From positions 78,179-142,178 of the forward strand of contig NZ_JAFREN010000001.1 in NCBI RefSeq assembly GCF_017377505.1: 64,000 bases of DNA, written 5' to 3'. The DNA comes from Enterococcus sp. DIV0212c. Its GTDB lineage: Bacteria > Bacillota > Bacilli > Lactobacillales > Enterococcaceae. The translations under genes and the position numbers were made by a program. Shown piece by piece: positions 1 to 31,631 of the stretch (positions are counted from its first letter, which is position 1; the number at the start of each line of letters is the position of its first letter). The notes under the pieces are model-generated. The model was given only the letters and a program-made list of their open reading frames with translations. It had not been told where the DNA came from and ran no database searches.

Positions 1-502
1 CAGCTTTTGCACGAGCCAATGCTGAATAATATAAATTGTCATATTCTTTGGCCGGTCTTAATTTTTTAAAGCCATCTTTAATTGCTTTATCTGTTTGAGA
101 AGAGATCCATAAACGTTTGACTGGCTTATTAAAATGGACATATTCTAAGATCCAACGAGCAACTAGCTCTCCTTCACGTCCAGCATCTGTTGCGATGACC
201 GCTTCTGTAACATCTTTTCTATTTGCTAATTGTTTGATTGCTTTTAATTGATGACCAGTTTTTGGTAATGGTTTGATTCCTAGGTTTTTCGGTACCATCG
301 GCAAAGTTTCCATCTGCCATGATTGCCATTCTTTATTGATATCTTCTGGCATTTTTAATCCTAACAAGTGTCCTAATGCCCAAGTTACGATCACATTTGG
401 TCCTTCATAATAGCTTTTATTTTTTTGATTTGCGCCTAGCACTTTACTTAAATCTTTGGCAACACTAGGTTTTTCAGCAATAATCAGTTGTTTGTTTGCC
501 AT
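1..502 (-). CDS. topB: DNA topoisomerase III, N-terminal part (runs off the left edge)
   Basis: The first 167 codons of a type IA topoisomerase, read leftwards from an ATG at 502; the rest lies outside the window. Type IA enzymes cut one DNA strand through a tyrosine and help resolve linked or recombining DNA. The Toprim domain is visible: an early AEKPS motif (about residues 9-13) with its catalytic glutamate, and an acidic DAGREGE motif at about residues 106-112. The usual family form is DADREGE, so one Asp is Gly here. The active tyrosine would be in the missing part. Topoisomerase III is preferred over topoisomerase I because of the short N terminus that leads directly into Toprim. Confidence 0.85.
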   Translation of the reverse strand, partial: MANKQLIIAEKPSVAKDLSKVLGANQKNKSYYEGPNVIVTWALGHLLGLKMPEDINKEWQSWQMETLPMVPKNLGIKPLPKTGHQLKAIKQLANRKDVTEAVIATDAGREGELVARWILEYVHFNKPVKRLWISSQTDKAIKDGFKKLRPAKEYDNLYYSALARAKA

Positions 503-640
503 TTATTCCACTCGCTTTCTATGTTTCCTTATGTAAATTGAATTGTTTTAAAAAATGTCAATAAGTTGATTTTACCACATTCTCACCATTCTTCACCTCT
601 TTTATTTGAAGCATTTTTATTGAAATGTAAAAGAAAGAGC

Positions 641-667
641 TTTATACTTACTATTTGTAAGTATAAA
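641..667. promoter_or_regulatory. Perfect 11-bp inverted repeat before the DsbA-like gene
   Basis: Arms TTTATACTTAC and GTAAGTATAAA are separated by TATTT, ending 23 bases before the ATG at 691. The position fits a repressor operator or promoter overlap. The core resembles operators of HxlR/DUF24 redox regulators, but the regulator is not encoded next to it, so that link is a guess. Confidence 0.5.
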
Positions 668-690
668 ATACTACCTAGCAAGGAGAAACT

Positions 691-1404
691 ATGATTACTA
701 TTGAATTTTTTCACGATGTTATCTGCAGTTTTTGTTTTCCAATGTCTTATCGAATGAGACAAGTTCAAAAAGAATTGCCTGAAATAAACATTATTCACCG
801 CTCTTTCGCGTTAGCTAGAGATGAAGAGGATCATATTCAAATGTTTGGTTCTAGAGAAAATGCGAAAAATGAAATCTTATCTCATTGGGTTCATGCGAAT
901 CAAAATGACGATCTTCACCGTTTTAACATTGAAGGAATGAAAAAAGCCGACTTTCCTTTTCCAACATCAATGAATGGCTTACTTGCAGCAAAAGCCGCTA
1001 GTGTAGTTGCAGGTGAAGCTGGTTATTGGGACATCTTTGATGCTTTACAAGAAGCATTATTCGTTCATAGTCAAAATATTGATGAGCCCTCTGTCGTTGA
1101 ATCAGTTGTCAAAAACAGCTCTATTGATTTTCAAGAATGGCAACAAGCCTTCAATAATCCGGCAACTTTAGCATTGGTAGAAGATGATTTTCGAGTAGCA
1201 AATGCTTATCAACTTAGTGGAGTACCAGCATTAATCGTAAATGGAAAATATCTGATCAATGGCGCACAGCCTTTGGAACAAATCCTCCAAGCACTTCAAA
1301 CAATCAAAGAAAAAGAAGAACCCATTATTGAAGTGATTGAAAATAGCGATTCAGAAAATGGCTCTTGCAATATGGAAGATGGTAAATGGGTTTGTAAGGA
1401 CTAA
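691..1404 (+). CDS. DsbA-family (FrnE-like) thiol oxidoreductase
   Basis: A 237-residue cytosolic protein with no signal peptide. The N-terminal strand MITIEFFHDVICSFC carries a CXXC-type active site, Cys12-Ser-Phe-Cys15, where the DsbA/FrnE/2-hydroxychromene isomerase superfamily has its redox centre. A GVPALIVNGKY segment near residue 180 supplies the cis-proline loop of the thioredoxin fold. The C terminus adds two more cysteines (SCNMEDGKWVCKD), as in some FrnE proteins that use a second pair. A good AAGGAG site precedes the ATG. It stands alone between an inverted-repeat promoter region and a strong terminator. The likely role is a disulfide or polyphenol/stress-related oxidoreductase; the substrate is unknown. 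Confidence 0.8.
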   Translation: MITIEFFHDVICSFCFPMSYRMRQVQKELPEINIIHRSFALARDEEDHIQMFGSRENAKNEILSHWVHANQNDDLHRFNIEGMKKADFPFPTSMNGLLAAKAASVVAGEAGYWDIFDALQEALFVHSQNIDEPSVVESVVKNSSIDFQEWQQAFNNPATLALVEDDFRVANAYQLSGVPALIVNGKYLINGAQPLEQILQALQTIKEKEEPIIEVIENSDSENGSCNMEDGKWVCKD

Positions 1405-1415
1405 TACAGCTAGGC

Positions 1416-1460
1416 AAAAAAAAGCGAGTGAACATTAAAAAATGTTTGCTTGCTTTTTTC
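1416..1460 (+). terminator. Intrinsic terminator of the DsbA-like gene
   Basis: Stem AAGCGAGTGAACATT pairs with AATGTTTGCTTGCTT and is followed by a T run, just after the stop codon at 1404. Confidence 0.8.
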
Positions 1461-1467
1461 AAAAAAA

Positions 1468-1528
1468 CGTAAAGATATCTTTACGAAAAAAAGTTAGTTA
1501 TGCTAAAATAAAGTAAAGATATCTTTAC
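1468..1528. promoter_or_regulatory. Twin palindromic operators around the XRE promoter
   Basis: The perfect palindrome GTAAAGATATCTTTAC occurs twice, at 1469-1484 and 1513-1528, with centres 44 bp apart. A plausible -10 (TAAAAT, 1504-1509) lies between them, and the first copy overlaps the likely -35 (TTTACG, 1480-1485). The next gene encodes an XRE regulator, so autoregulation is likely. Confidence 0.7.
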
Positions 1529-1548
1529 CTAAATAGGAGATTATCATT

Positions 1549-1752
1549 ATGACAGTCCATAATAAGATCAAAGAAATACGTGAAAGTAAAAAGATTCCCC
1601 AAATTCAAATGGCCACTGAATTAGGTGTTTCTAGACAAACAATGAATGCGATTGAGAAAACGAAGTATAATCCAAGCTTAGAATTATCTTTAAAAATAGC
1701 AAAATATTTTGATATGCATGTAGAAGAAATTTTTAAATTAGAGGAGGAATAA
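1549..1752 (+). CDS. Small XRE/Cro-type DNA-binding regulator
   Basis: A 67-residue protein that is almost only a helix-turn-helix domain. The region IPQIQMATELGVSRQTMNAI is a typical XRE recognition segment, followed by KYNPSLELSLKIAKYFD and a short acidic tail. This matches the small YozG/Cro-like class that is often paired with a membrane protein. RBS TAGGAGA lies upstream. Twin 16-bp palindromes flank its promoter and are the obvious binding sites. The next gene starts three bases after its stop, so the two form an operon in which the regulator probably controls the membrane partner. Confidence 0.85.
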   Translation: MTVHNKIKEIRESKKIPQIQMATELGVSRQTMNAIEKTKYNPSLELSLKIAKYFDMHVEEIFKLEEE

Positions 1753-1755
1753 CGA

Positions 1756-2121
1756 ATGATGTTTTTGCAAATCATCCCATTATTATTAATAGCGGTCTTT
1801 ACGTTTAGCTCTATTTTCAACGCTGTTAAAGTGATTGTTCAAGTAAAAAAAGGAAATTTAGATGAACTGGAGAAAAAAATCATTTTAGATTCTTTGGTTT
1901 ATACCATGATTACCATTTTGATTTTACACCTAATTCAGTTGGTGTTAGGAATCGTAGCTAATCTTAGCCCGTATAAATTTCATTACCGACCAATCATTTC
2001 CAGTGGTATTCCCTTCAATAGTGTGATAAGTAACTCACCTGTACATTTTGAAGCTATCATTTTCGATTGTCTTGTTTTTTCATTTATTTACTTTCTTAAA
2101 AAAAGAAAATATAGGGATTAA
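1756..2121 (+). CDS. Small membrane protein paired with the XRE regulator
   Basis: A 121-residue protein with three predicted membrane spans (about residues 3-25, 49-71 and 100-115) and a basic C terminus KKRKYRD. The RBS GAGGAGG lies at the end of the upstream regulator gene. The first codons are ATG ATG, so the start may be one codon later. No catalytic motif is visible. Regulator plus membrane protein pairs of this type are common in Firmicutes and usually of unknown function. It ends inside a bidirectional terminator. Confidence 0.7.
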   Translation: MMFLQIIPLLLIAVFTFSSIFNAVKVIVQVKKGNLDELEKKIILDSLVYTMITILILHLIQLVLGIVANLSPYKFHYRPIISSGIPFNSVISNSPVHFEAIIFDCLVFSFIYFLKKRKYRD

Positions 2122-2155
2122 GGAATAAGCATTTTATTCCTTAGTCTCTATATTT
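2107..2155. terminator. Bidirectional terminator between convergent genes
   Basis: Arms of about 22 bases (2107-2128 and 2134-2155) pair almost throughout, with AAGGAATAA/TTATTCCTT at the centre and A/T runs at both ends. It serves the plus-strand membrane gene and the minus-strand DUF1033 gene. Confidence 0.75.
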
Positions 2156-2520
2156 TATACAAGACTACTCTTACAACATTTTGGTTTCACACAATCATTA
2201 TGGCGTTCATGAAAATCATCGCCGCTTTCAAAGGTAACTGCTTGAAGATCTTTCAGCAACGCTAGTCCTTTATATTGTTGCAGATCCTCATCACATTCGT
2301 CACACCAACGTTCATCACCGTCAGTCCAAAAAGCAGCTAGATAATTGACTTTTGTATTTATGTATTCATAGGTTGAAGAGAGTTCTTGCCATTTTTTTAT
2401 GTAGTAACGTTCTGCGTCTTCCAAACAATCAAATGTTTTATTTTCTTCGATATCTTCTTGCCAGTCTTCAAAAAACCACCAAGGCTCATTATCGCCGTAC
2501 ATGGTAACAACTTGGTACAT
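2155..2520 (-). CDS. DUF1033 family protein
   Basis: A 121-residue acidic, tryptophan-rich soluble protein beginning MYQVVTMYGDNEPWWFFEDW, the hallmark start of the DUF1033 family of lactic acid bacteria. It has two CXXC-like spots (WCDECDED near residue 78 and KPKCCKS near the C terminus), so metal or thiol chemistry is possible. The family has no firmly established role. It is monocistronic and ends in the shared bidirectional terminator. Confidence 0.75.
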   Translation of the reverse strand: MYQVVTMYGDNEPWWFFEDWQEDIEENKTFDCLEDAERYYIKKWQELSSTYEYINTKVNYLAAFWTDGDERWCDECDEDLQQYKGLALLKDLQAVTFESGDDFHERHNDCVKPKCCKSSLV

Positions 2521-2684
2521 CGATCGATCACTCCAATTCTTTATACAAGAGCTATTCTAGTCACTTAGTATAAAACTTTCAACTTAACTGCTTGTGAAAT
2601 AGTTTTTGTTTAAACGTTCATTATTTTTATTTTACCATAACTCTTATGTAACAAAAGAAGAAAATTGATTTTCTATTTATTTCA

Positions 2685-2713
2685 TTGCGTATAGAAAAGG
2701 CATTTGCTAAAAT
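2685..2713 (+). promoter_or_regulatory. Promoter of the 130-residue membrane protein
   Basis: -35 TTGCGT (2685-2690), 17-bp spacer, extended -10 TGC-TAAAAT (2705-2713). It places transcription start near 2720 and rules out translation from the in-frame TTG at 2685. Confidence 0.65.
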
Positions 2714-2744
2714 ATGGAAAGAACAGAAAGGAACGTTTGTTAAT

Positions 2745-3137
2745 ATGAAAAAACCTGTATTTTGGAACTCAATTGCTATTTATTTACTCTTATATAATAA
2801 TATTTTACTCATTATTTCATTAATCATGGCGTTAAAAGCTGTGGTTGAAGGAAACGGAACGTTTGGATCGGATGTTTGGTATCAGATTTTTGTTTTCCTT
2901 ATTTATATCATTGTGATTGCTGGATTAATGACAGGTGGAAAAAAAGGTTATCTATTATCCATACTCTTCATTCCATTTATTTTTATCATGTACTTTTATC
3001 CGCCGATGATTGTTAGCATGTTTCCTAAAATGATTATGTTAGCCTTTCGTGTGGTTGAATTGGTTTCAATGGTTTATCTCGTTGTTTCACCAGAATCAAG
3101 AGCTTATTTCCGTAACTGTAATCAAAAAAGCGAGTAG
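2745..3137 (+). CDS. Hypothetical four-span membrane protein
   Basis: About 130 residues with four predicted membrane segments (roughly residues 8-30, 45-64, 68-88 and 95-116 from the chosen start) and a charged C terminus. The reading frame stays open upstream to a TTG at 2685. That TTG lies in the -35 box of the promoter, while ATG 2745 has an AGAAAGGA site 13 bases upstream, so 2745 is preferred. No family motif recognised. It is followed directly by a terminator that includes its stop codon. Confidence 0.65.
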   Translation: MKKPVFWNSIAIYLLLYNNILLIISLIMALKAVVEGNGTFGSDVWYQIFVFLIYIIVIAGLMTGGKKGYLLSILFIPFIFIMYFYPPMIVSMFPKMIMLAFRVVELVSMVYLVVSPESRAYFRNCNQKSE

Positions 3138-3158
3138 GAAAAAATCCTACTCGTTTTT
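3124..3158 (+). terminator. Intrinsic terminator
   Basis: CGAGTAGGA (3131-3139) pairs with TCCTACTCG (3145-3153), followed by TTTTTA. The stop codon of the upstream gene lies in the 5' arm. Confidence 0.85.
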
Positions 3159-3203
3159 ATTTTAGAATTTTTGAACTAAAACTAACTCCTAGCTCAAGTT
3201 TTT

Positions 3204-4343
<1,140 letters not shown>

Positions 4344-4483
4344 TCAATTTAGATTCTGAACTCATCTACGATTTGAAGGTCGTAACTTTTCAGTGATACT
4401 TATTATACTAGTATTTTGGAAGAAGTAAAGGTATTAAGAGGAAACAACGGGAACCTTAGTAAATTTTTCTACAGTTTAACATT

Positions 4484-4523
4484 AAAAAAATAAGACTAGA
4501 CCTTTTCGATCTTGTCTTATTTT
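4484..4523 (-). terminator. Terminator of the desulfurase/DUF1831 unit
   Basis: AAAATAAGAC pairs with GTCTTATTTT around a short loop. On the minus strand it is followed by a T run, so it would separate the DUF1831/desulfurase transcript from mnmA. Confidence 0.7.
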
Positions 4524-4535
4524 AAGATTTACAAA

Positions 4536-4877
4536 CTAAACTTTCTCCAACACACCACGACTAATCATCCCATCCATCAAGAAATAGAACTTTTCTTGAC
4601 TCATTGCATGAGACTCATTTTTGAAAATATTCATCGATTTTAAACCATTAGCAGTTGTTACTGACATTTTCAACGTTTTCAAATCTTCAGCGATCGTGAT
4701 TTTTAATTTAAAGCCTTCTTTACTTTGGGGTGTTGCATCCAACGGACGGATCAATTGAAAGTTACCTGAATTTGTTTCAGTGAAGCCGTTATCTTTTAAT
4801 GTGTATTTTTTTGCTTGCTCATTTACTTTATAAAATACTGTACAACCTTCTACTGTTGCTTTTTCTTTAAATGCCAT
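4536..4877 (-). CDS. DUF1831 family protein
   Basis: A 113-residue soluble protein (MAFKEKATVEGCTVFYKVNE...). It matches the small DUF1831 family found beside cysteine desulfurase and mnmA genes in lactobacilli and enterococci. There is a clear RBS (AGAGGTGG) upstream. No catalytic motif is visible. The context suggests a link to tRNA thiolation or sulfur transfer, but its action is unknown. Confidence 0.8.
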   Translation of the reverse strand: MAFKEKATVEGCTVFYKVNEQAKKYTLKDNGFTETNSGNFQLIRPLDATPQSKEGFKLKITIAEDLKTLKMSVTTANGLKSMNIFKNESHAMSQEKFYFLMDGMISRGVLEKV

Positions 4878-23998: not shown

Positions 23999-24036
23999 AA
24001 AAAGAGACACCTTCTAAATAGAAGTCGCCTCTTTTT
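23999..24036 (-). terminator. Attenuator-like hairpin in the MFS leader
   Basis: On the minus strand AAAAAGAGGCGACTTCT pairs with AGAAGGTGTCTCTTTTT, followed by TTG. It sits between the promoter (24085-24113) and the ATG at 23971. A four-codon ORF (24059-24045) precedes it with only a weak RBS. Confidence 0.6.
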
Positions 24037-24084
24037 CGACATATCTAAAATAAAGACATGCTTCTGTACGATTTTATGTTTTGT

Positions 24085-24113
24085 ATATTAACATTAGTTT
24101 TCCTTATAGTCAA
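24085..24113 (-). promoter_or_regulatory. Promoter of the MFS gene
   Basis: -35 TTGACT (24113-24108), 17-bp spacer, -10 TAATAT (24090-24085) on the minus strand. Confidence 0.75.
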
Positions 24114-24235
24114 GAATTAGCTCATTCTTTTTCTATTCAACGTTAAAAAAATTCTAGAATAATAACATAAAATCTATATTTATTCCGTCTTGATCATTTT
24201 AGACACGATCTAAAATCGAAGCAAATTCATCCCCT

Positions 24236-24733
24236 TTAGTTTTCCACTATTTTTTTTACCTCTTGGATTGTCAGTGGTTTATCTGGCGTCCATTGGGCTT
24301 TTCTTTTTTGTTTTCCATCAATATAAAGTGCAATTGTCGGTGTGTATTTAACCTCATACTTTTCCTTAAACATTGCCCATTCTTTGTCTGATTTTCGTAA
24401 AGCTGCCACATTCAAATAAACTAATTTATTTTTTATCTCCTTGTTTTGGTTTAAATAATTTAAAAGTAACAAATCAAATAAATTACAATCAATACAGTCT
24501 GGTCTTCCTATATATACGAGCACTTCATCTTTTGCTGCTACTTTATTTTCAAAATGCTCAGGTGTGATAGAATCTAATTGTCCAAATATGTCAACTGACT
24601 GTTCTAACTCGTTTAATTGCTCTTCGTTCTTTTGACTTGTCAGCATTGCTTGATTGTATTTGTAATATGTAAAAGCCCAGCACAAGGATATGAAAACTAT
24701 GATTGCTCCCGCTATCAGTTTATTTTTTTTCAT
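24236..24733 (-). CDS. Membrane-anchored thioredoxin-fold protein 2 of the peptide operon
   Basis: A 165-residue protein with one N-terminal membrane anchor (about residues 5-24), a coiled charged linker, and a thioredoxin-like domain outside the cell. The redox motif is RPDCIDC (Cys80/Cys83) and the cis-proline is in KYTPTIALY. It resembles bacteriocin transport accessory proteins (PedC/BrcD type) in fold and size. Its ATG overlaps the stop of the preceding thioredoxin gene by four bases. Last gene of the operon. The probable role is making or isomerising a disulfide in the exported 82-residue peptide. Confidence 0.75.
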   Translation of the reverse strand: MKKNKLIAGAIIVFISLCWAFTYYKYNQAMLTSQKNEEQLNELEQSVDIFGQLDSITPEHFENKVAAKDEVLVYIGRPDCIDCNLFDLLLLNYLNQNKEIKNKLVYLNVAALRKSDKEWAMFKEKYEVKYTPTIALYIDGKQKRKAQWTPDKPLTIQEVKKIVEN

Positions 24734-25137
24734 TCGTCACTCTCCATGAACTGTTTGAAATCTTTTAACTCCTTGATTCCATCTGTTTTTTCAGTCATCT
24801 TTCCATCAACTATTTTAAAAAAAGTTGGTACTGTCACAATATCATATTTTGTAAGAAAATTTTCATCTACATTTTCTGGTTCACTTAAATCAATGCCTTT
24901 TACATTATACTTTTTTAAGTTATTATCTTGAAGTTTTCGAGCAAGCTTTTTACAAGAAATACAGTCTGTCTTATAAAAATAAACAACTGTATCTTCCTTT
25001 TTATCCATTATTTGTTTTAAATCTTTCATTGAAATCTCTTCATAAAAAGTTTCTAGCTGACTCAATTTTTGTTTTAAGGTAAATAACAAGCCAATCGTAC
25101 AAGAGATAAACAATAATACAACTATCTTTTTTTTCAT
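24730..25137 (-). CDS. Membrane-anchored thioredoxin-fold protein 1 of the peptide operon
   Basis: A 135-residue protein with an N-terminal membrane anchor (about residues 4-20) and a short thioredoxin domain. The active site is KTDCISC (Cys59/Cys62) and the cis-proline lies in IVTVPTFF (about residue 104). It differs clearly from its neighbour, so the pair may act as oxidant and isomerase, or as a relay. It starts 63 bases after the peptide gene and is coupled to the next gene by an ATGA overlap. Confidence 0.75.
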   Translation of the reverse strand: MKKKIVVLLFISCTIGLLFTLKQKLSQLETFYEEISMKDLKQIMDKKEDTVVYFYKTDCISCKKLARKLQDNNLKKYNVKGIDLSEPENVDENFLTKYDIVTVPTFFKIVDGKMTEKTDGIKELKDFKQFMESDE

Positions 25138-25200
25138 CTTCTATAATTGGCAAAGCAGTTAAATCACCACTGCTCTGCCACCTTTCTTTTTAAGTTTAAA

Positions 25201-25449
25201 TTAATTACACTCTACGTTAATGCTAAACCCTGTTTCTGCCCAACCCCAGTTTCCTGTAAATTTTTTTCCTTGATATAGTAAACACCAAATGGCTAGAGCG
25301 GTTCCAATCGCAAAAGCTAAGCTTAGTAAAACTGCTACAAACACCAAAAACCATGCATCGTACTGTACAATTTTTTCATCTAATTTCCGAACTACATTCT
25401 CTTTCAACGACAAAACTACACTTGCTGACTGCATTACAACATTATTCAT
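25201..25449 (-). CDS. 82-residue one-span peptide, candidate bacteriocin/signal precursor
   Basis: Not recognised as a known family. The N-terminal 31 residues are polar and amphipathic (SVVLSLKENVVRKLDEK), followed by a membrane span at about 32-59 (FLVFVAVLLSLAFAIGTALA core) and a 23-residue exposed tail containing GKKFTGNWGWAETG and ending NVECN. There are only two cysteines: Cys56 at the outer end of the span and Cys81 next to the C terminus, so one disulfide could close a 26-residue loop. It sits between an M50-like protease gene and two thioredoxin-fold genes. RBS TAGGA lies eight to nine bases before the ATG. This is the likely product of the operon. Confidence 0.6.
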   Translation of the reverse strand: MNNVVMQSASVVLSLKENVVRKLDEKIVQYDAWFLVFVAVLLSLAFAIGTALAIWCLLYQGKKFTGNWGWAETGFSINVECN

Positions 25450-25457
25450 TCTTTTTC

Positions 25458-25979
25458 CTACTTTCTTTTTATTTTTTTTATCAACACTTTGAAAATGACC
25501 TTGCCATCTCCAAAGATTGGTAACAGGTTTATAATGTGAAATCCGTACAAGAAACTCAAACTTCTTAGCAATACATTATTGTCAAATAAAGATAAACTAT
25601 AGAAAATAAAACTAACTACCAAACACGAACCAGGACCAAGGAACGCCACCCATAATTGATTATTGTCAGAAAGTTGACTACTATCAATTTTTAATGAAAA
25701 TCGAAAGCATGTTACTTGAATTTCCATGCATTTAGCTCCCGCTTTTCGTGCTCCTAAGACATGCATATATTCATGCAAGAAAGTCGAAAAAATCACTCCT
25801 ATAAAGAATAATGTAAAACAACTACTTGTGAACTTAATCAACTCTATATCCCAATAATATAGCCCTATTCCTATCATAATTAACGAGTTTACAGTTACAA
25901 AAGCTATTAATAAACGAAAATATTTAATCACTATCAATCCAAAGGTCAGTGGCTTTAATTCATCAATTTTAAAAATCAT
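25458..25979 (-). CDS. M50/DUF3267-like intramembrane metalloprotease
   Basis: A 173-residue protein with four predicted membrane spans. A zinc motif HEYMH (His69-Glu70...His73, from FLHEYMHVLGARKAG) lies at the end of span two to three, and a second motif NLLPIFGDGKVI near residue 160 matches the N-P-DG motif of site-2 proteases. This is the minimal M50 core. In related peptide systems (for example B. subtilis YydH, or Eep for enterococcal pheromones) such proteases cut a peptide in the membrane. It overlaps the gene before it and precedes the candidate precursor by eight bases. Confidence 0.75.
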   Translation of the reverse strand: MIFKIDELKPLTFGLIVIKYFRLLIAFVTVNSLIMIGIGLYYWDIELIKFTSSCFTLFFIGVIFSTFLHEYMHVLGARKAGAKCMEIQVTCFRFSLKIDSSQLSDNNQLWVAFLGPGSCLVVSFIFYSLSLFDNNVLLRSLSFLYGFHIINLLPIFGDGKVIFKVLIKKIKRK

Positions 25980-26280
25980 TCGTCAATCTTTTTTTTCGTT
26001 CAAGTAAAACTTTGTAGGTAACCTGACTAAAATATAAGATTGCAAACAGTGCTAAAATAACTATGATTAAGGGCTGATAATTTTGTGTTAAGCCAAAACT
26101 CATTATTGTTTTTCCAAAAGAATCAGTCACACTTTTAAAAAATAACGTATTGAAAAATATTTTTCTTGTTCCATCATTAGAACTGCTAAATAAAACAATC
26201 AAGAAATTCACTGTCATTAAAACAGCCGTGAGAATTATCGAACCCATCAAGCTATTTATTGCTATTTTAATTTTTTCCAT
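25969..26280 (-). CDS. Small two- to three-span membrane protein of the peptide operon
   Basis: A 103-residue protein with hydrophobic segments at about residues 8-33 and 69-88 and a basic C terminus (LLERKKRL). No family recognised. It overlaps the permease gene upstream by 14 bases and the protease gene downstream by 11 bases, so it is clearly part of the operon. It could be a transporter subunit or an immunity factor. Confidence 0.65.
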   Translation of the reverse strand: MEKIKIAINSLMGSIILTAVLMTVNFLIVLFSSSNDGTRKIFFNTLFFKSVTDSFGKTIMSFGLTQNYQPLIIVILALFAILYFSQVTYKVLLERKKRLTNDF

Positions 26281-27697
26281 GTCTAATATCCTCCTGCAAT
26301 TTTTTTAATCCGTTTAAACTATAGTAAATTGTTATTATGATTAGCAGTAACATTATCAATCCGTTGACAATCGCTGACCAATTAAAGATCAGCAAAATCA
26401 CTGCCAAAACAAAGGTTATCGTTATTACGACAACAAAACCTACAAATACACTAAATGGATTTTCCCTTTTTGGCGGAAATAAAATTCCTATTAGCGTAAA
26501 AAGGAGAATCGATAAAAATAGAACAAAACAAAACGAAAATATTTCTTTTACATTCTTTTTAAACAACAGTTCAACTAGAACAAATGGACTACTCACGATA
26601 CTCAGGAACAGATACTGGCTAAAAATCAAGTTAAAATAGTCCCAAAAAACATTGTATTCTTTTTTTGAATAATACCAGCGTATATTTTCTGTTTGAATAA
26701 ACAAGTAAATTCCAACTATTGTAGGAATTAAGAAAGCTAAACTTGCTTGAATGTTGGTAAATAAAAGTAAATATAAATAGATGGTCAAACTAATCATCAT
26801 ATAAGAGTAATTTTCAATATTTCGATAAAGACAAAGGAAATACAACTTAAACATATTTACTTTGTTTATTTTGATTTTTAAAGGTAAGTTCTTATTGTCC
26901 GTAATATACTCATTGTTTGGTATAAATAATATGCCAACAGCCAAACAAAAGCTTATCAGTAAAAATACCAGCGACGTAACAAAAAAATTCGTCTGTTTCA
27001 GAATAAAACTATACCCTAATAAAACGTTCTCATTTCTTATTTTATCTAAATAGTTGATCAGCATATTATCAATAACGATCGGATAACAAACAAAAAATAT
27101 AGCTACAATACTTAATAAACTAAAAAATTGAATCAATGTTTTAAACTTTTGCAGATGTAAAACAATCACGCACCAAGATAATAATGAGAAAATCAACTGC
27201 AAGATCAAATATATCGTGATACTTGTAAAGAATACATTTGCAAATATCTTAGCAATGTAGATCCATTGATATTTCATAATAAATGCAATCACAACACCTG
27301 AAGAAACAAGCAATATACAAATCATAGATAAAACTAGTTCAAATAATAATAATGCAGTATTTCTTTCTTGATTTTTGACTGGTAACTGAAAGGTCATTTG
27401 TAAAAATTGATTTGATTTCATAAATAGAACTTTTAAAAATATAAATATTATTGATGTCCACATCAGTATATTTCCCGTATATACATCTAAAATTAATTCA
27501 GCTTGTAGCTTTTGATTGCCAATTTCATTTAAAAAAAGATAGATCCCAATTGTAACTACACTAACAAGAGAGACAATAATAAACAGTAGCAATACACGAA
27601 ACATTTTTTTCTTTAACAATCCAATATTGGTCACTTTTCTGACAAAGAACAAGTAGAATAATTTGAATAGGCTAATAACTTTGGTTAATCTCATCAT
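26267..27697 (-). CDS. ABC-type permease of the peptide operon
   Basis: A 476-residue protein with about 12 hydrophobic spans and short basic loops, similar in layout to ABC-2 exporter permeases that work with a separate ATPase. It overlaps the ATPase gene by 26 bases. No peptidase C39 domain is present, so leader removal must come from elsewhere, such as the M50-like protease. Strong A/T bias (many Ile, Phe, Lys, Asn) sets it apart from flanking core genes and suggests transfer. Confidence 0.75.
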   Translation of the reverse strand: MMRLTKVISLFKLFYLFFVRKVTNIGLLKKKMFRVLLLFIIVSLVSVVTIGIYLFLNEIGNQKLQAELILDVYTGNILMWTSIIFIFLKVLFMKSNQFLQMTFQLPVKNQERNTALLLFELVLSMICILLVSSGVVIAFIMKYQWIYIAKIFANVFFTSITIYLILQLIFSLLSWCVIVLHLQKFKTLIQFFSLLSIVAIFFVCYPIVIDNMLINYLDKIRNENVLLGYSFILKQTNFFVTSLVFLLISFCLAVGILFIPNNEYITDNKNLPLKIKINKVNMFKLYFLCLYRNIENYSYMMISLTIYLYLLLFTNIQASLAFLIPTIVGIYLFIQTENIRWYYSKKEYNVFWDYFNLIFSQYLFLSIVSSPFVLVELLFKKNVKEIFSFCFVLFLSILLFTLIGILFPPKRENPFSVFVGFVVVITITFVLAVILLIFNWSAIVNGLIMLLLIIITIYYSLNGLKKLQEDIRHGKN

Positions 27698-28421
27698 ACA
27701 ATTGCTCGTAATCTATTAGATTTTTAAAAATGGTAACTAATCGTTCATTCTTTTCAAGATATTCTTTTGAATCATATTTAATTACTCCCTCATTTAGAAG
27801 AAGGACTCGACTTTCAATTTCTTCTACTAGTTCTAAATCATGTGTGCATAAAATTGTAGCACCACCGTTTTTTTGATGGTTTTTCAGTAATAATTTACTA
27901 ACTTCTTTGGCTTCAATATCTATTCCATTGAGCGTTTCATCAATTATTATTAATTTAGGAGCAATTAAAAACGCAGAAATCAATTGAATTTTTTTCTTCA
28001 TCCCATGAGAATAGTTTTCTATCAATTGATGCACCCTGTTTTCCATAGCATAATAACTAGCGAGTATTTGTACCTTCTCTTGATCAATTTCCTTATCATA
28101 TAATTCTCCTAGCATCAAAAGATATTCGTATCCTGTTAAAAATTCTGGTAAATAGTCATCACTAGGTAAATAGATTAAATTTACCTTTGTTTGAATGTCT
28201 TTGTTTTCATAACCATCAAAACGTATACTTCCACTTTGGAGCTCTAATAAATCGGTTACAAGTTTTATTAATGTTGTTTTCCCACTACCATTCGGACCAG
28301 CTATAGATAAAAAATCGTTTGAAGTCATTTCAAAATTAATATCAAAAAGAACTTGTTGATCGCCATAAGTATACGATACATTTTTAACCGAAAAGAAATC
28401 ATCACTATCGATATCCGTCAC
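27672..28421 (-). CDS. ABC transporter ATP-binding protein, first gene of the peptide operon
   Basis: A 249-residue ATPase: Walker A GPNGSGKTT (about residues 42-50), signature YSHGMKKK, Walker B LIIIDETLNGID and the switch His in LCTHDLE. The signature SHGMKKK is the variant seen in bacteriocin-immunity and ABC-2 exporters (CcmA group). It starts with GTG at 28421 behind GGAGGA. Together with the overlapping permease it forms one exporter, for the peptide product or for self-protection. Confidence 0.85.
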   Translation of the reverse strand: MTDIDSDDFFSVKNVSYTYGDQQVLFDINFEMTSNDFLSIAGPNGSGKTTLIKLVTDLLELQSGSIRFDGYENKDIQTKVNLIYLPSDDYLPEFLTGYEYLLMLGELYDKEIDQEKVQILASYYAMENRVHQLIENYSHGMKKKIQLISAFLIAPKLIIIDETLNGIDIEAKEVSKLLLKNHQKNGGATILCTHDLELVEEIESRVLLLNEGVIKYDSKEYLEKNERLVTIFKNLIDYEQLYDEINQSY

Positions 28422-28448
28422 GCTTATTCCTCCACTCTTTCATACATT

Positions 28449-28464
28449 GTAGTATATTTACTAC
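28449..28464. promoter_or_regulatory. Palindrome upstream of the peptide operon
   Basis: GTAGTATATTTACTAC: 6-bp arms GTAGTA/TACTAC around TATT, 28 bases before the GTG start of the ATPase. It resembles a dimeric repressor site (GntR/YtrA class is one possibility). No regulator gene is adjacent. The promoter could not be fixed with confidence. Confidence 0.45.
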
Positions 28465-28801
28465 TCCTATAATCGCATATACCAATTACATAAAAGAAAA
28501 AATACTACGGTTAAAAAGTAACATTTATTTTAATATATGTAAAACAAAAACTTTAAAAAACAATATATAACATATATTATAAAAATAAAATACGACCATA
28601 CCTTTATTCTTTTTAATTAATAACGATAATTTTTTAATCTTATTATTCCTACATTACGCGAATCGTTCTGAATCTACTCATTGTTTTATAATTTAAATAA
28701 TAATTTTATAATTTTAAAATATTATCATTATTTTACTTGAATTTCCAATGTAAAATAACTCCTATATCTTTCATAATTCGATCTTTTTTCACAGCAAAAA
28801 A

Positions 28802-28826
28802 GATGCTGGTGTAATTCACCAACATC
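28802..28826 (-). terminator. Hairpin terminator downstream of the decayed small ORF
   Basis: GATGCTGGTG pairs with CACCAACATC; the minus strand continues with TTTTTTGC. The AT-rich stretch between here and 28465 shows nothing else I can support. Confidence 0.6.
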
Positions 28827-28870
28827 CGAAATTAACGTTTAAATTTTTTGTTTCACTTATAAAATCAGTT

Positions 28871-29020
28871 TTAATCTGTTGAATAATAATAGATTGAAAT
28901 AATACTTGTAAACGATATTCTATCACGTTTCGTCAGTTTTCCCTTGAAATCTAAATACATAAAACGAGCGGAAAACAAAGATATAACTATTGAAAATAAT
29001 ATAAAGAATACATTTTACAT
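28871..29020 (-). pseudogene. Decayed copy of the 58-residue two-span protein
   Basis: The minus-strand frame encodes ISLFSARFMYLDFKGKLTKR before stopping at 28871. This aligns with VSALFLYLDLKKKLTAKHR of the intact ORF at 29410-29586. The start region reads ATG followed at once by TAA, so translation would fail, and the last span is altered. DNA similarity extends past the stop (TATAAAATCAGTTTTA in both). Confidence 0.6.
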
Positions 29021-29060
29021 ACTTATTCTCCAACACTCAAACCATTTTTAAACTGACACC

Positions 29061-29251
29061 TCTAAAAAAGTTCAAACTGACATTAAAAATACGTTGGATT
29101 TACCTTATTCCAACGGACCGTTAGAATACTTGAATAAGCATATAAAAGTACTAAAAAAAATACCTATAGCTTCCGTAACTTCCACAATTTTAAATTGAGA
29201 ATTACTTTATTCTTTGGTACTGTTCTTTTTCAACCAAATAAAAAGTCCTAG
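29061..29251 (+). pseudogene. ISL3-family transposase, C-terminal remnant with frameshift
   Basis: The plus-strand frame from 29061 encodes TLDLPYSNGPLEYLNKHIKV, the signature C-terminal region of ISL3 transposases. A frameshift near 29161 moves the rest (YSFRNFHNFKLRITLFFGTV) to another frame ending at TAG 29251. Only about 60 codons remain. It marks past insertion beside the peptide operon. Confidence 0.75.
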
Positions 29252-29320
29252 AAGATATTTCCTCTAGGACCCATACTAATTGATTTCATTCTTTGGATTT
29301 TCTTCATCAACATTAGCTGA

Positions 29321-29352
29321 AAAAGAGCCCTTTTTTCTAATAAGGTTCTTTT
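29321..29352 (-). terminator. Terminator of the 58-residue ORF
   Basis: AAAAGAGCC (29321-29329) pairs with GGTTCTTTT (29344-29352) with one G-U pair; the minus strand ends in TTTTTC. A second hairpin, GTCCTAGA/TCTAGGAC, lies at 29245-29270. Confidence 0.55.
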
Positions 29353-29409
29353 CTATTCTATAAGACTGAATAAATCAAAAATGAACTTATTACTGCGCTA
29401 ATGCTCTTT

Positions 29410-29586
29410 TTATAAAATCAGTTTTACTACAATCGATAAAGAATATACTAACACTAAAACTATGAAAATTATTCTATGTTTTGCTGTCAACTTTTTCTTG
29501 AGATCTAAATAAAGAAAAAGAGCTGACACAAAAAGCATAAGCATTGAAAATAATGTAAACAATAAATTTAGCATAACTGTTCTCAT
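29410..29586 (-). CDS. 58-residue two-span membrane protein (immunity candidate)
   Basis: An ATG at 29586 opens a 58-codon ORF. It has two hydrophobic segments (about residues 5-25 and 39-57) separated by a basic turn YLDLKKKLTAKHR. An extended -10 promoter (TGCTATAAT) lies about 100 bases upstream on the same strand, and terminators follow. The RBS is weak (GAGAAAG), and a strong GAGGAGGAGG further upstream precedes a six-codon ORF, so translation may be coupled. A decayed paralogue lies at 28871-29020. Size and topology suit a bacteriocin immunity protein, but no family was recognised. Confidence 0.55.
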   Translation of the reverse strand: MRTVMLNLLFTLFSMLMLFVSALFLYLDLKKKLTAKHRIIFIVLVLVYSLSIVVKLIL

Positions 29587-29846
29587 ACTTTCTCATTTTA
29601 ACGAGACTTAACATCTTAAACTAGCGCCCAAGTCATGTTTAAAACAATGCCTCCTCCTCTATTATTTTCCCATCGCGAATGAGTTAATCAAATTATAGCA
29701 TTTACAACAAACATAAACAGCGTTTTTCGTTACATTTAGTCGGAATATTTTTAAAACGAAATAAAGATCACACTACGCAGTCTCTGATAAAATTAAAGCG
29801 ACAGTTAGATCAATATATTTCAAAAAAGCACCATTATTTTTGCTAC

Positions 29847-29894
29847 AAAAAAGCTTTCGCAATTCAAAATAAATTCTGAATTGCGAAAGCTTTT
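29847..29894 (-). terminator. Terminator of ptsHI
   Basis: AAAAGCTTTCGCAATTCA pairs perfectly with TGAATTGCGAAAGCTTTT around a 10-base loop. Confidence 0.9.
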
Positions 29895-29903
29895 AATTAC
29901 TAT

Positions 29904-31631
29904 TTATTTCGTGTAGTCCTTAACTAACTCAATAACTTCTTCCATTGTATCGCAGTCATTCAACGCACGATCCGCAAGTTCAGCCATTTTCTTAGTATCT
30001 AGACGTTTCATCAAGCTACGAGTTTGAAGAATAGATGTCGCACTCATTGAGAACTCATCTAAGCCCATTCCTACCAATAATGGAACAGCCATTTGATCGC
30101 CACCCATTTCTCCACACATACCAGTCCATTTACCTTCAGCATGTGAAGCATCAATAACGTTCTTGATCAAACGTAGAATTGATGGGTTATATGGTTGGTA
30201 TAAGTAAGAAACGCGTTCGTTCATACGGTCTGCTGCCATTGTGTATTGAATCAAATCATTTGTTCCAATACTGAAGAAATCAACTTCTTTGGCGAATTTA
30301 TCAGCAATTACAGCTGCTGCAGGAATTTCGATCATGATACCGACTTGAATCGTATCAGATACTTTTGTTCCTTCAGAAACTAATTTAGCTTTTTCTTCTT
30401 CAAAGATTTTCTTCGCTGCTCTGAATTCTTTTAACGTTGCAACCATTGGGAACATGATACGTAAGTTACCATGAACAGACGCACGTAATAATGCACGCAT
30501 TTGTGTACGGAACATTTCGTCGCCACGTTCAGATAAGCTGATACGTAAAGCACGGTAACCTAAGAATGGGTTCATTTCATGCGGTAATTGCAGATAAGGT
30601 AATTCTTTATCTCCACCGATATCCATTGTACGAACCACGACAGGTTTGCCGTTCATGCCTTCAAGTACTGCAGTATAAGCTGTATATTGTTCATCTTCTG
30701 TTGGGAAGTCTGGAGAATCCATGTAAAGGAATTCTGTACGATATAAACCAACAGCTTCAGCACCATTATTGTGTACGCCTTCTAAATCTTTAGGTGTACC
30801 AATGTTAGCAGCTAATTCGATGTGTTTACCATCAGCAGTAACTGTTTCAGCATTTTTTAGTTTTTCCCATTCAACTTTAAGGTCAGCGTAAGCTTTTCCT
30901 TTTGCTTCAAAATCAGATTTTTCAGCGTCAGTTGGGTGGATGATGACATCGCCATCGATTCCGTTAACAGCTAAGATGTCGCCTTCTTTCACTTTAGCAG
31001 TGATTTCTTTTGTTCCTACGATTGCAGGAATTTCAAGCGAGCGAGCCATAATAGCTGAATGTGATGTACGTCCGCCAATATCTGTTACGAATGCTTTCAC
31101 ATACGTACGGTCTAATTGAGCAGTATCACTTGGTGTTAAGTCATGGGCAACCACAACTACTTCTTCGTTAATCATTGAAGGATTTGGAAGAGTAACACCT
31201 AATAAATGAGCTAAAATACGTTTAGCAACGTCACGGATATCCGCAGCACGTTCTTGCATGTAGGCATTATCGTCCATTGCTTCAAACATACCGATATACA
31301 TATCAGTCACTTCTTTTAATGCTGATTCAGCATTAACTTTGTTATCTTGAATGTTTTGTTTGATTTGACCAATCATTTCAGGGTCAGACAAAACCATTAA
31401 ATGAGCATCAAATACTTGAGCTTCTTCTTCACCAAGGCTTTGCGCTGCTTTTTCTCTGATTGCTTGCAACTCAGTCGTAGATTTTGCTAAAGCATCATCT
31501 AAACGACTTTCTTCTGCTGATGTATTATCAACAGATTTTTTGTCGAAAGATAAATCAGGTTGAACTAACAGGTAAGCTTTAGCGATAGCAACACCATCAC
31601 TTGCGGCAATTCCTTTTAGCATTTCTGACAT
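29904..31631 (-). CDS. ptsI: PTS enzyme I (phosphoenolpyruvate-protein phosphotransferase)
   Basis: A 575-residue cytosolic enzyme that moves phosphate from PEP to HPr, the entry step for all PTS sugars. The phospho-histidine lies in [18 protein letters not shown] (about residue 191), and the PEP-binding barrel has TEFLYMD and MCGEMGGD with the catalytic Cys. Full family length. The stop of ptsH overlaps its ATG by one base, giving the classic ptsHI operon. Confidence 0.97.

Follow-up and report, generated by a model that had tools for sequence, protein, structure and literature searches.

The operon of Enterococcus sp. DIV0212c

The stretch of 64,000 nucleotides of Enterococcus sp. DIV0212c analysed here (the window) belongs to contig NZ_JAFREN010000001.1 (positions 78,179 to 142,178, forward strand) of an assembly of 3.54 Mb in 41 contigs (G000), and contains at 24236-28421 an operon-like array of seven open reading frames (ORFs) on the minus strand. 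They encode an ATP-binding cassette (ABC) ATPase, a permease, a small membrane protein, an intramembrane metalloprotease, a small peptide, and two membrane-anchored proteins of the thioredoxin fold. The array is very probably a biosynthetic gene cluster for a TMcin, a published class of bacteriocins, with a variant redox module. The ORF listing of the window bears out the description given in an earlier note on this DNA: seven minus-strand genes separated by overlaps or short gaps, among them one for an 82-residue peptide with one span and two cysteines.

At the 5' end of the array lies the gene of a tmcB-like ABC ATPase of 249 residues with a GTG start (27672-28421, on the minus strand like all those that follow), which matches ABC_tran of Pfam (PF00005, 75.8 bits) and, in phmmer searches, the undivided ATPase ORFs adjoining tmcA in other loci (E-values between 2e-35 and 2e-61). 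It is followed by a tmcC-like permease of 476 residues and 11 predicted spans (26267-27697), which matched no family of Pfam or NCBIfam and is recognised by its kin beside tmcA elsewhere and by a TmcC tree. The third gene (25969-26280) encodes a protein of 103 residues and two spans, for which nothing rose above the cut-offs of Pfam and NCBIfam, and in Pfam nothing even came close; it has homologues in clusters of Bacillota and Actinomycetota and corresponds to the escort TmcE, whose role is described in PMC13252029. The earlier note had given it no role. The fourth gene (25458-25979) encodes a tmcP-like DUF3267/M50 intramembrane metalloprotease of 173 residues, with the motif HEYMH at residue 69, a GDG motif, and a distal Asp158. 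The fifth (25201-25449) is the tmcA-like precursor, whose 82 residues include one transmembrane helix; it fell above the cut-off of no Pfam or NCBIfam family, and was identified through a profile family and a model made with AlphaFold 2 (AF2). The last two genes encode a one-span thioredoxin-fold protein of 135 residues with a CISC motif (protein 1, 24730-25137; PF00085, 35.9 bits for a cut-off of 23.5) and another of 165 residues with CIDC (protein 2, 24236-24733), barely over the same cut-off at 23.8 bits.

The genes are tightly packed. The ATPase and permease genes overlap by 26 bases, those of the permease and the small protein by 14, those of the small protein and the protease by 11, and the two CXXC genes by 4; only 8 bases separate the protease from the peptide, and 63 the peptide from the first CXXC gene. 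The three 2-kb bins that cover 24001-30000 have a GC content of 27-31%, and 25 of the 29 remaining bins one of 33-39%, which is only a weak hint of foreign origin because three further bins of the window are similarly low (30-31%). The nearest homologues of the neighbouring gene of the major facilitator superfamily are 52-53% identical and yielded no empty-site comparison. PADLOC returned nothing for the seven proteins submitted (six from the window, the ATPase excluded), and a scan for promoters and terminators, which gave 40 promoter-like sites for 31.0 expected and 3 terminator-like sites for 1.3, was not used.

The precursor peptide and the TMcin class

The only two cysteines of the window peptide, Cys56 and Cys81, define a family. 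A six-peptide seed alignment, run against 3334 candidates from 5.8 billion sequences, gave 177 family proteins at E<=0.01, and the window's own peptide is among the best 120 of them; in this subset the members with an organism name all come from Bacillota or Actinomycetota, most having no name. The nearest other peptide among the matches listed is 89% identical (Enterococcus sp. DIV0724b). When the peptide of the Staphylococcus epidermidis plasmid pHOB2 is added to the best 120, 120 of the resulting 121 peptides, the window's included, have both cysteines, at a distance of 25 residues in 117, 24 in two, and 23 in one, the remaining peptide (P0006) having no second cysteine. A tryptophan precedes the first cysteine by 23 residues in all 120 peptides measured, and a selected set of 95 sequences, to which P0006 does not belong, shows no variation at W33, A39, W55, C56, F64, W68, and C81. 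In the family alignment the N-terminal stretch is variable, and the helix and the tail are conserved. Trp33 and Trp55 bracket the single span of the window peptide, as the TMcin class requires, and the AF2 model has a helix at residues 32-59 followed by the two strands of a hairpin (64-71 and 74-81).

The profile search of the peptide and the comparison of neighbourhoods, both proposed in the earlier note, thus led to a peptide family and to gene neighbours that recur in two phyla. Because the cysteine pair is kept in 120 of 121 relatives and the neighbours recur so widely, the operon and its peptide are not products of chance. It was the peptide profile that gave access to the family. With the protease, a single-protein search of the genome contig database found no relative, and one of 196 related genomes gave the window's own protein and just two others. 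A search of plasmid DNA gave one match of 113 bases, which led to pHOB2, and another plasmid search gave three relatives; tblastn of phages and plasmids with the actinobacterial peptide P0084 gave no matches. An 87-residue protein of genome G294 was dropped from the family as a false positive, as it has no cysteine. A TmcA relative, 43% identical in its best segment, is encoded at 2838-3083 of L057, a 53-kb record of the viral_contigs set (IMG/VR).

TMcins were described in 2025 (Dickey et al., Nature Communications, PMC12328743), and their biosynthesis is the subject of a 2026 preprint (Nur et al., PMC13252029). In the main text of the latter the genes are tmcA, tmcB, tmcC, tmcE for the escort, and tmcP for a DUF3267 protease, plus tmcD in staphylococci; both texts together describe clusters from two phyla in three gene arrangements. 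The reference system, TMcin-G1905, is encoded on plasmid pCT545 of Staphylococcus aureus. Its TmcA has a 297-bp gene, a 45-residue leader, and cysteines C25 and C50 in the mature peptide, and its TmcP has H68EYMH and D158 (PMC13252029); the mature TMcin weighs 5.8 kDa, retains its helix, and makes large pores (PMC12328743, PMC13252029).

The window operon has the whole core of this system, tmcB, tmcC, tmcE, tmcP, and tmcA, with a one-helix precursor and a protease whose HEYMH is shifted by a single residue and whose distal aspartate has the same number. Counted from Ala32, the peptide has its cysteines at C25 and C50, as well as K32 and E49, the two residues of the salt bridge modelled in G1905 (Lys32-Glu49; PMC12328743). 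The helix and hairpin of the AF2 model match the make-up described for a TMcin. We file the operon as a TMcin cluster because gene content, cysteine numbering, Lys32/Glu49, HEYMH/Asp158, and fold all agree with published G1905. There are differences: the window has no DsbA-like tmcD (CPHC), the last two genes of the operon encoding CXXC proteins of the thioredoxin fold instead, and no adjacent helix-turn-helix (HTH) regulatory pair was seen. The absence of TmcD is no bar to the class, since the preprint reports tmcD to be missing outside staphylococci. The earlier note had taken the operon for a new kind of system, a claim that falls because both the peptide and the gene content fit this characterised class; a match of the peptide to such a class is what the note itself had named as a refutation. 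Its outline of a ribosomal peptide, cleaved by an M50-like protease, exported by the ABC pair, and closed by a Cys56-Cys81 bond holds in its main lines, as the roles of protease, escort, export, and disulphide were established by mutation of the TMcin-G1905 genes (PMC13252029, main text); the part that it gave to the redox pair in forming the bond stays conditional.

The product itself calls for a correction. Transferring the G1905 numbering (C25/C50) onto C56/C81 gives a predicted leader of residues 1-31 (25357-25449) and a predicted mature TMcin of residues 32-82 (25204-25356), a boundary that coincides with the start of the AF2 helix at residue 32; the calculated average mass of this 51-residue peptide with its disulphide is 5639.5 Da. 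In the earlier note, the protease was to free just the 23-27 residues at the C terminus, which would serve as a bacteriocin or signal with a small loop. The tail and its cysteines are indeed conserved, and EpeP, a protease of M50 type, is linked to the release of a short peptide in the published description of its system. Yet the transmembrane stretch is as conserved as the tail (Trp33, Ala39, and Trp55 are among the invariant residues) and it is the N-terminal part that varies, so that a short-tail product is very unlikely. Because secreted TMcins keep their transmembrane helix, a length of some 51 residues, starting near Ala32, is expected for the mature product.

Could the cluster belong to other families that combine similar parts? 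The epeXEPAB operon of Bacillus subtilis (yydFGHIJ; epipeptide EPE/YydF), likened here by its description, also has a small peptide, an M50 intramembrane protease, and an ABC pair, and one of the two clade-B TmcP proteins tested matches the model of the daptide protease. That match has 32.3 bits for a cut-off of 300, though, and epeXEPAB differs by encoding a radical SAM epimerase and by a product of 17 residues that is modified only by the epimerisation of two of them. No radical SAM family was found among the seven proteins in Pfam or NCBIfam. There is no ORF of at least 40 residues in 28421-29410, and those lying between the operon and position 29904 are one of 58 residues and an overlapping one of 46. 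The window peptide belongs to another family. Epipeptide membership was rejected for want of the epimerase in the seven-gene operon, and an epipeptide-like or daptide-like cluster is the least probable of all the readings considered. The YydG model has a single match in the host genome (48.1 bits, cut-off 300), on another contig. A separate cluster resembling those of ribosomally synthesised and post-translationally modified peptides (RiPPs) lies elsewhere in this genome (L056; contig C27, 2926-7478), with a 69-residue hydrophobic candidate precursor, a radical SAM protein of weak YydG similarity, a thioredoxin-fold protein, and an ABC protein.

Several results weigh against the assignment to TMcins. 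The protease scores just below the Pfam cut-offs of both its families (24.0 bits for 27.2 in PF02163, M50; 23.6 for 27.1 in PF11667, DUF3267, with an E-value of 7.1e-5). The confidence of the AF2 peptide model is modest (predicted local distance difference test, pLDDT, of 70; predicted template modelling score, pTM, of 0.40), and Foldseek found no match to it in the PDB at E<=0.001; a separate search for solved structures gave one match, at chance level (E 0.35). The comparison with TMcin-G1905 is one of published residue positions, not a direct alignment; no record of S. aureus was among the matches when plasmids were searched by tblastn with the peptide of S. epidermidis. Finally, the peptide occurs in 24 of the 44 genomes in the genus of a relative, G334 (the neighbourhood was read in 9 of the 24), which makes it commoner there than a sporadic bacteriocin.

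If the operon is a TMcin cluster, TmcA would sit in the producer membrane with its C-terminal tail outside, folded into a two-stranded sheet that the Cys56-Cys81 disulphide would pin to the upper end of the transmembrane helix. TmcE would escort the precursor, TmcP would remove the N-terminal leader near Asp31/Ala32, and TmcBC would extract and secrete the product of about 51 residues, helix included. In the membrane of a Gram-positive target, the TMcin would oligomerise into a beta-barrel pore ringed by helices. The two thioredoxin-fold proteins would stand in for TmcD as the disulphide module. For TMcin-G1905, antimicrobial activity and pore conductance are experimental, and the beta-barrel ring is a model from AF2 and molecular dynamics (PMC12328743, main text). 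We infer the membrane topology and the exact cleavage site of the window TmcA, and likewise the activity of its product.

Related loci in two phyla

Gene orders separate the loci into a few types. Among 23 Actinomycetota loci (L010-L032) all five core genes were detected in 18, as counted with profiles that had themselves been iterated on this set of loci, and the order is peptide, ATPase, permease, small protein, protease. As for the other five, L022 and L032 end at a contig end, no protease was detected in L015 and no small protein in L026, and L029 has a degraded appearance. In Bacillota, one order is ATPase, permease, small protein, protease, peptide (the window, Enterococcus villorum, S. 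epidermidis pHOB2, L090, L091, and L092), and the other is peptide, ATPase, permease, protease, and a small two-span protein (L051, L052, L093-L101), the last gene being matched by a profile in L052 only and elsewhere called by position and spans. Three loci are exceptions: in G094 the protease gene precedes the peptide and the small protein is fused to a thioredoxin domain; in Roseburia the peptide, small protein, protease, and redox protein are followed by an insertion sequence and then the ABC genes; and Peribacillus has only the peptide and the ABC genes. A tree of 34 permeases, from which the partial one of Roseburia was omitted, has three groups that track gene orders, with G094 and Peribacillus in the second Bacillota group. 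The tree places the window with L090-L092 and S. epidermidis and not with E. villorum, in a group that has weak support (87/75). The finer placements are unsure because of this support and of the long branches of E. villorum, G094, and L010.

Plasmid pHOB2 of S. epidermidis 14.1.R1 (NZ_CP018844.1; L001, cluster at 1-4654) shares its five core genes and their order with the window, but differs in its redox gene, a divergent Thioredoxin_4 protein with CPDC whose ORF is truncated where the record begins, in the HTH gene and small membrane protein gene that adjoin tmcA, and in a Cys-Cys spacing of 24. The E. villorum locus (L007/L009) shares the order from ATPase, permease, small protein, and protease to peptide and thioredoxin, with a peptide 48% identical to the window's, and differs by a single thioredoxin-fold gene (CAKC) and by a divergent regulator of Rgg type. 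Such divergent regulators adjoin both the E. villorum and the G094 clusters (the latter at L008, 6005-6904); the word Rgg is absent from the main texts of PMC12328743 and PMC13252029. Strain 14.1.R1 has a broad activity against P. acnes, for which a type VII secretion system was suggested as the source (PMC5347227), and the TMcin-type cluster of pHOB2 is an alternative candidate.

Several loci show insertions or signs of decay. On the plasmid of Roseburia sp. 831b (L005, 5721-14225), an IS110 transposase and a cysteine desulfurase gene lie between the protease and redox genes and the ABC genes, with HTH genes upstream. The locus of Peribacillus muralis plasmid pG25-68 (L006:6965-9678), where tmcA, tmcB, and tmcC were found and no protease or small protein was detected, looks truncated. 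Decay is possible in Kocuria sp. 36 (L029), where the ATPase is read as two ORFs and the permease ORF is short, and in Tessaracoccus bendigoensis (L031), where a TAG lies inside the matched peptide stretch of the genome.

The occurrence of the peptide is scattered in most groups sampled. Taking in the window's own genome where it was sampled, matches were found in 3 of 105 genomes of its family, in 4 of 398 genomes of its phylum (one a false positive), in 10 of 398 genomes of its class (G599 and G1099 being weak), and in 3 of 150 genomes in the genus of the Streptomyces seed, seed included. The peptide is in single copy in all 21 genomes tested, which, with its strong conservation, could suggest a structural subunit of an ABC transporter/protease complex and not a product. 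This is extremely unlikely given that the peptide of G1905 leaves the cell and has killing activity (PMC12328743, main text), and one genome, G660, carries two copies in tandem. A tandem pair of nearly identical tmcA-type genes lies at L091:6405-7042, in a locus where two separate ORFs, of 387 and 92 residues, make up the permease.

In the second Bacillota group, the protease itself has a further domain. Proteins with PqqD-type domains bind the leaders of RiPPs, and such a domain precedes the metalloprotease part, above the Pfam cut-off, in 11 of the 12 proteases tested from G094 (L008) and this group (L051, L052, L093-L101), the twelfth (L094) having 20.3 bits for a cut-off of 23.4. None was reported in the proteases scanned outside the group (window, L013, L090), and the word PqqD is absent from the main texts of PMC12328743 and PMC13252029. 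The fusion of PqqD to TmcP suggests how one Bacillota clade recognises its short leader.

Thioredoxin-fold proteins and their probable role in disulphide formation

The main difference between the window and TMcin-G1905 is the redox module, where the thioredoxin-fold pair probably replaces TmcD. Examination of 20 Bacillota loci with their context (the window, L001, L005-L008, L051, L052, L090-L101) revealed that five (the window, E. villorum, G094, Roseburia, and S. epidermidis) have a gene of the thioredoxin fold within the cluster or adjoining it and that 15 have none; the non-staphylococcal loci have it in 4 of 19 cases, and the TMcin loci found in the window's family in all three. Motifs are diverse, with CPDC in both G094 and S. 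epidermidis. In G094 it belongs to the fusion of small membrane protein and thioredoxin domain (L008:10560-11279), and the redox protein of Roseburia sp. 831b joins two thioredoxin domains (CASC and CSSC) to a weak DsbD-like membrane part. A thioredoxin profile made from six Bacillota proteins, which may overlook redox enzymes of other kinds, found no match in the 23 Actinomycetota loci. Neither PMC12328743 nor PMC13252029 uses the word thioredoxin in its main text, and a CXXC pair of this fold in place of tmcD looks unreported as far as these main texts go.

Three results tell against a dedicated module of this kind. In loci L090-L092, of the window's own clade, the 5.5 kb inspected contain no gene of thioredoxin type; since the window clusters with them and with S. 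epidermidis, repeated gain of redox genes, or gain and loss, is likely. The DsbD-like part of the Roseburia protein (22.0 bits, cut-off 24.9) points to a reducing as much as to an oxidising role. Another Thioredoxin_4 protein elsewhere in the host genome (129.5 bits) could form the bond. The window also encodes, at 691-1404 of the plus strand, a 237-residue DsbA/FrnE-like protein with CSFC near its N terminus (PF13462, 25.8 bits, cut-off 23.2), possibly a cytosolic adaptor of SpxH type.

The pair might instead act as a reductase or isomerase that fixes or undoes wrong or early disulphides, perhaps keeping the TMcin inactive in the producer membrane, the bond being closed by a host DsbA-like protein or by air. 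The motifs CISC, CIDC, and CAKC are unlike the CPHC of TmcD, and protein 2 resembles the disulphide isomerases PedC/BrcD, thioredoxin-fold accessory proteins of bacteriocin operons that serve pediocin-like peptides, with a score far under the family cut-off (TIGR01295 of NCBIfam, 36.3 bits for 120). The double thioredoxin domains of Roseburia and the further Thioredoxin_4 protein of the host would fit such a role, as would the secretion, in inactive form, of a TMcin without cysteines (PMC13252029, main text). On the other hand, the CPDC of G094 and S. epidermidis has the proline of the DsbA motif, the DsbD-like match of Roseburia is below its cut-off, and in S. aureus the chromosomal DsbA is insufficient and the enzyme of the cluster is required (PMC13252029, main text). 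We regard this alternative as the less likely one, with a modest chance of being right, and replacement of TmcD as the probable role of the pair. A bolder extension is that some non-staphylococcal TMcin clusters recruited redox proteins of thioredoxin and not DsbA type more than once, and that these act as a redox safety catch, the peptide being kept reduced and inactive in the producer membrane until its exit, as a part of self-immunity; this is speculative and rather improbable.

As antibacterial pore formers, TMcins were recognised only recently, and the main text of the preprint (PMC13252029) leaves open how the disulphide is closed in producers other than staphylococci and how any producer protects itself. 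The thioredoxin-fold genes within the operon, the fusion of the small protein with a thioredoxin domain, and the double-thioredoxin fusion on the Roseburia plasmid are candidates for answering these questions.

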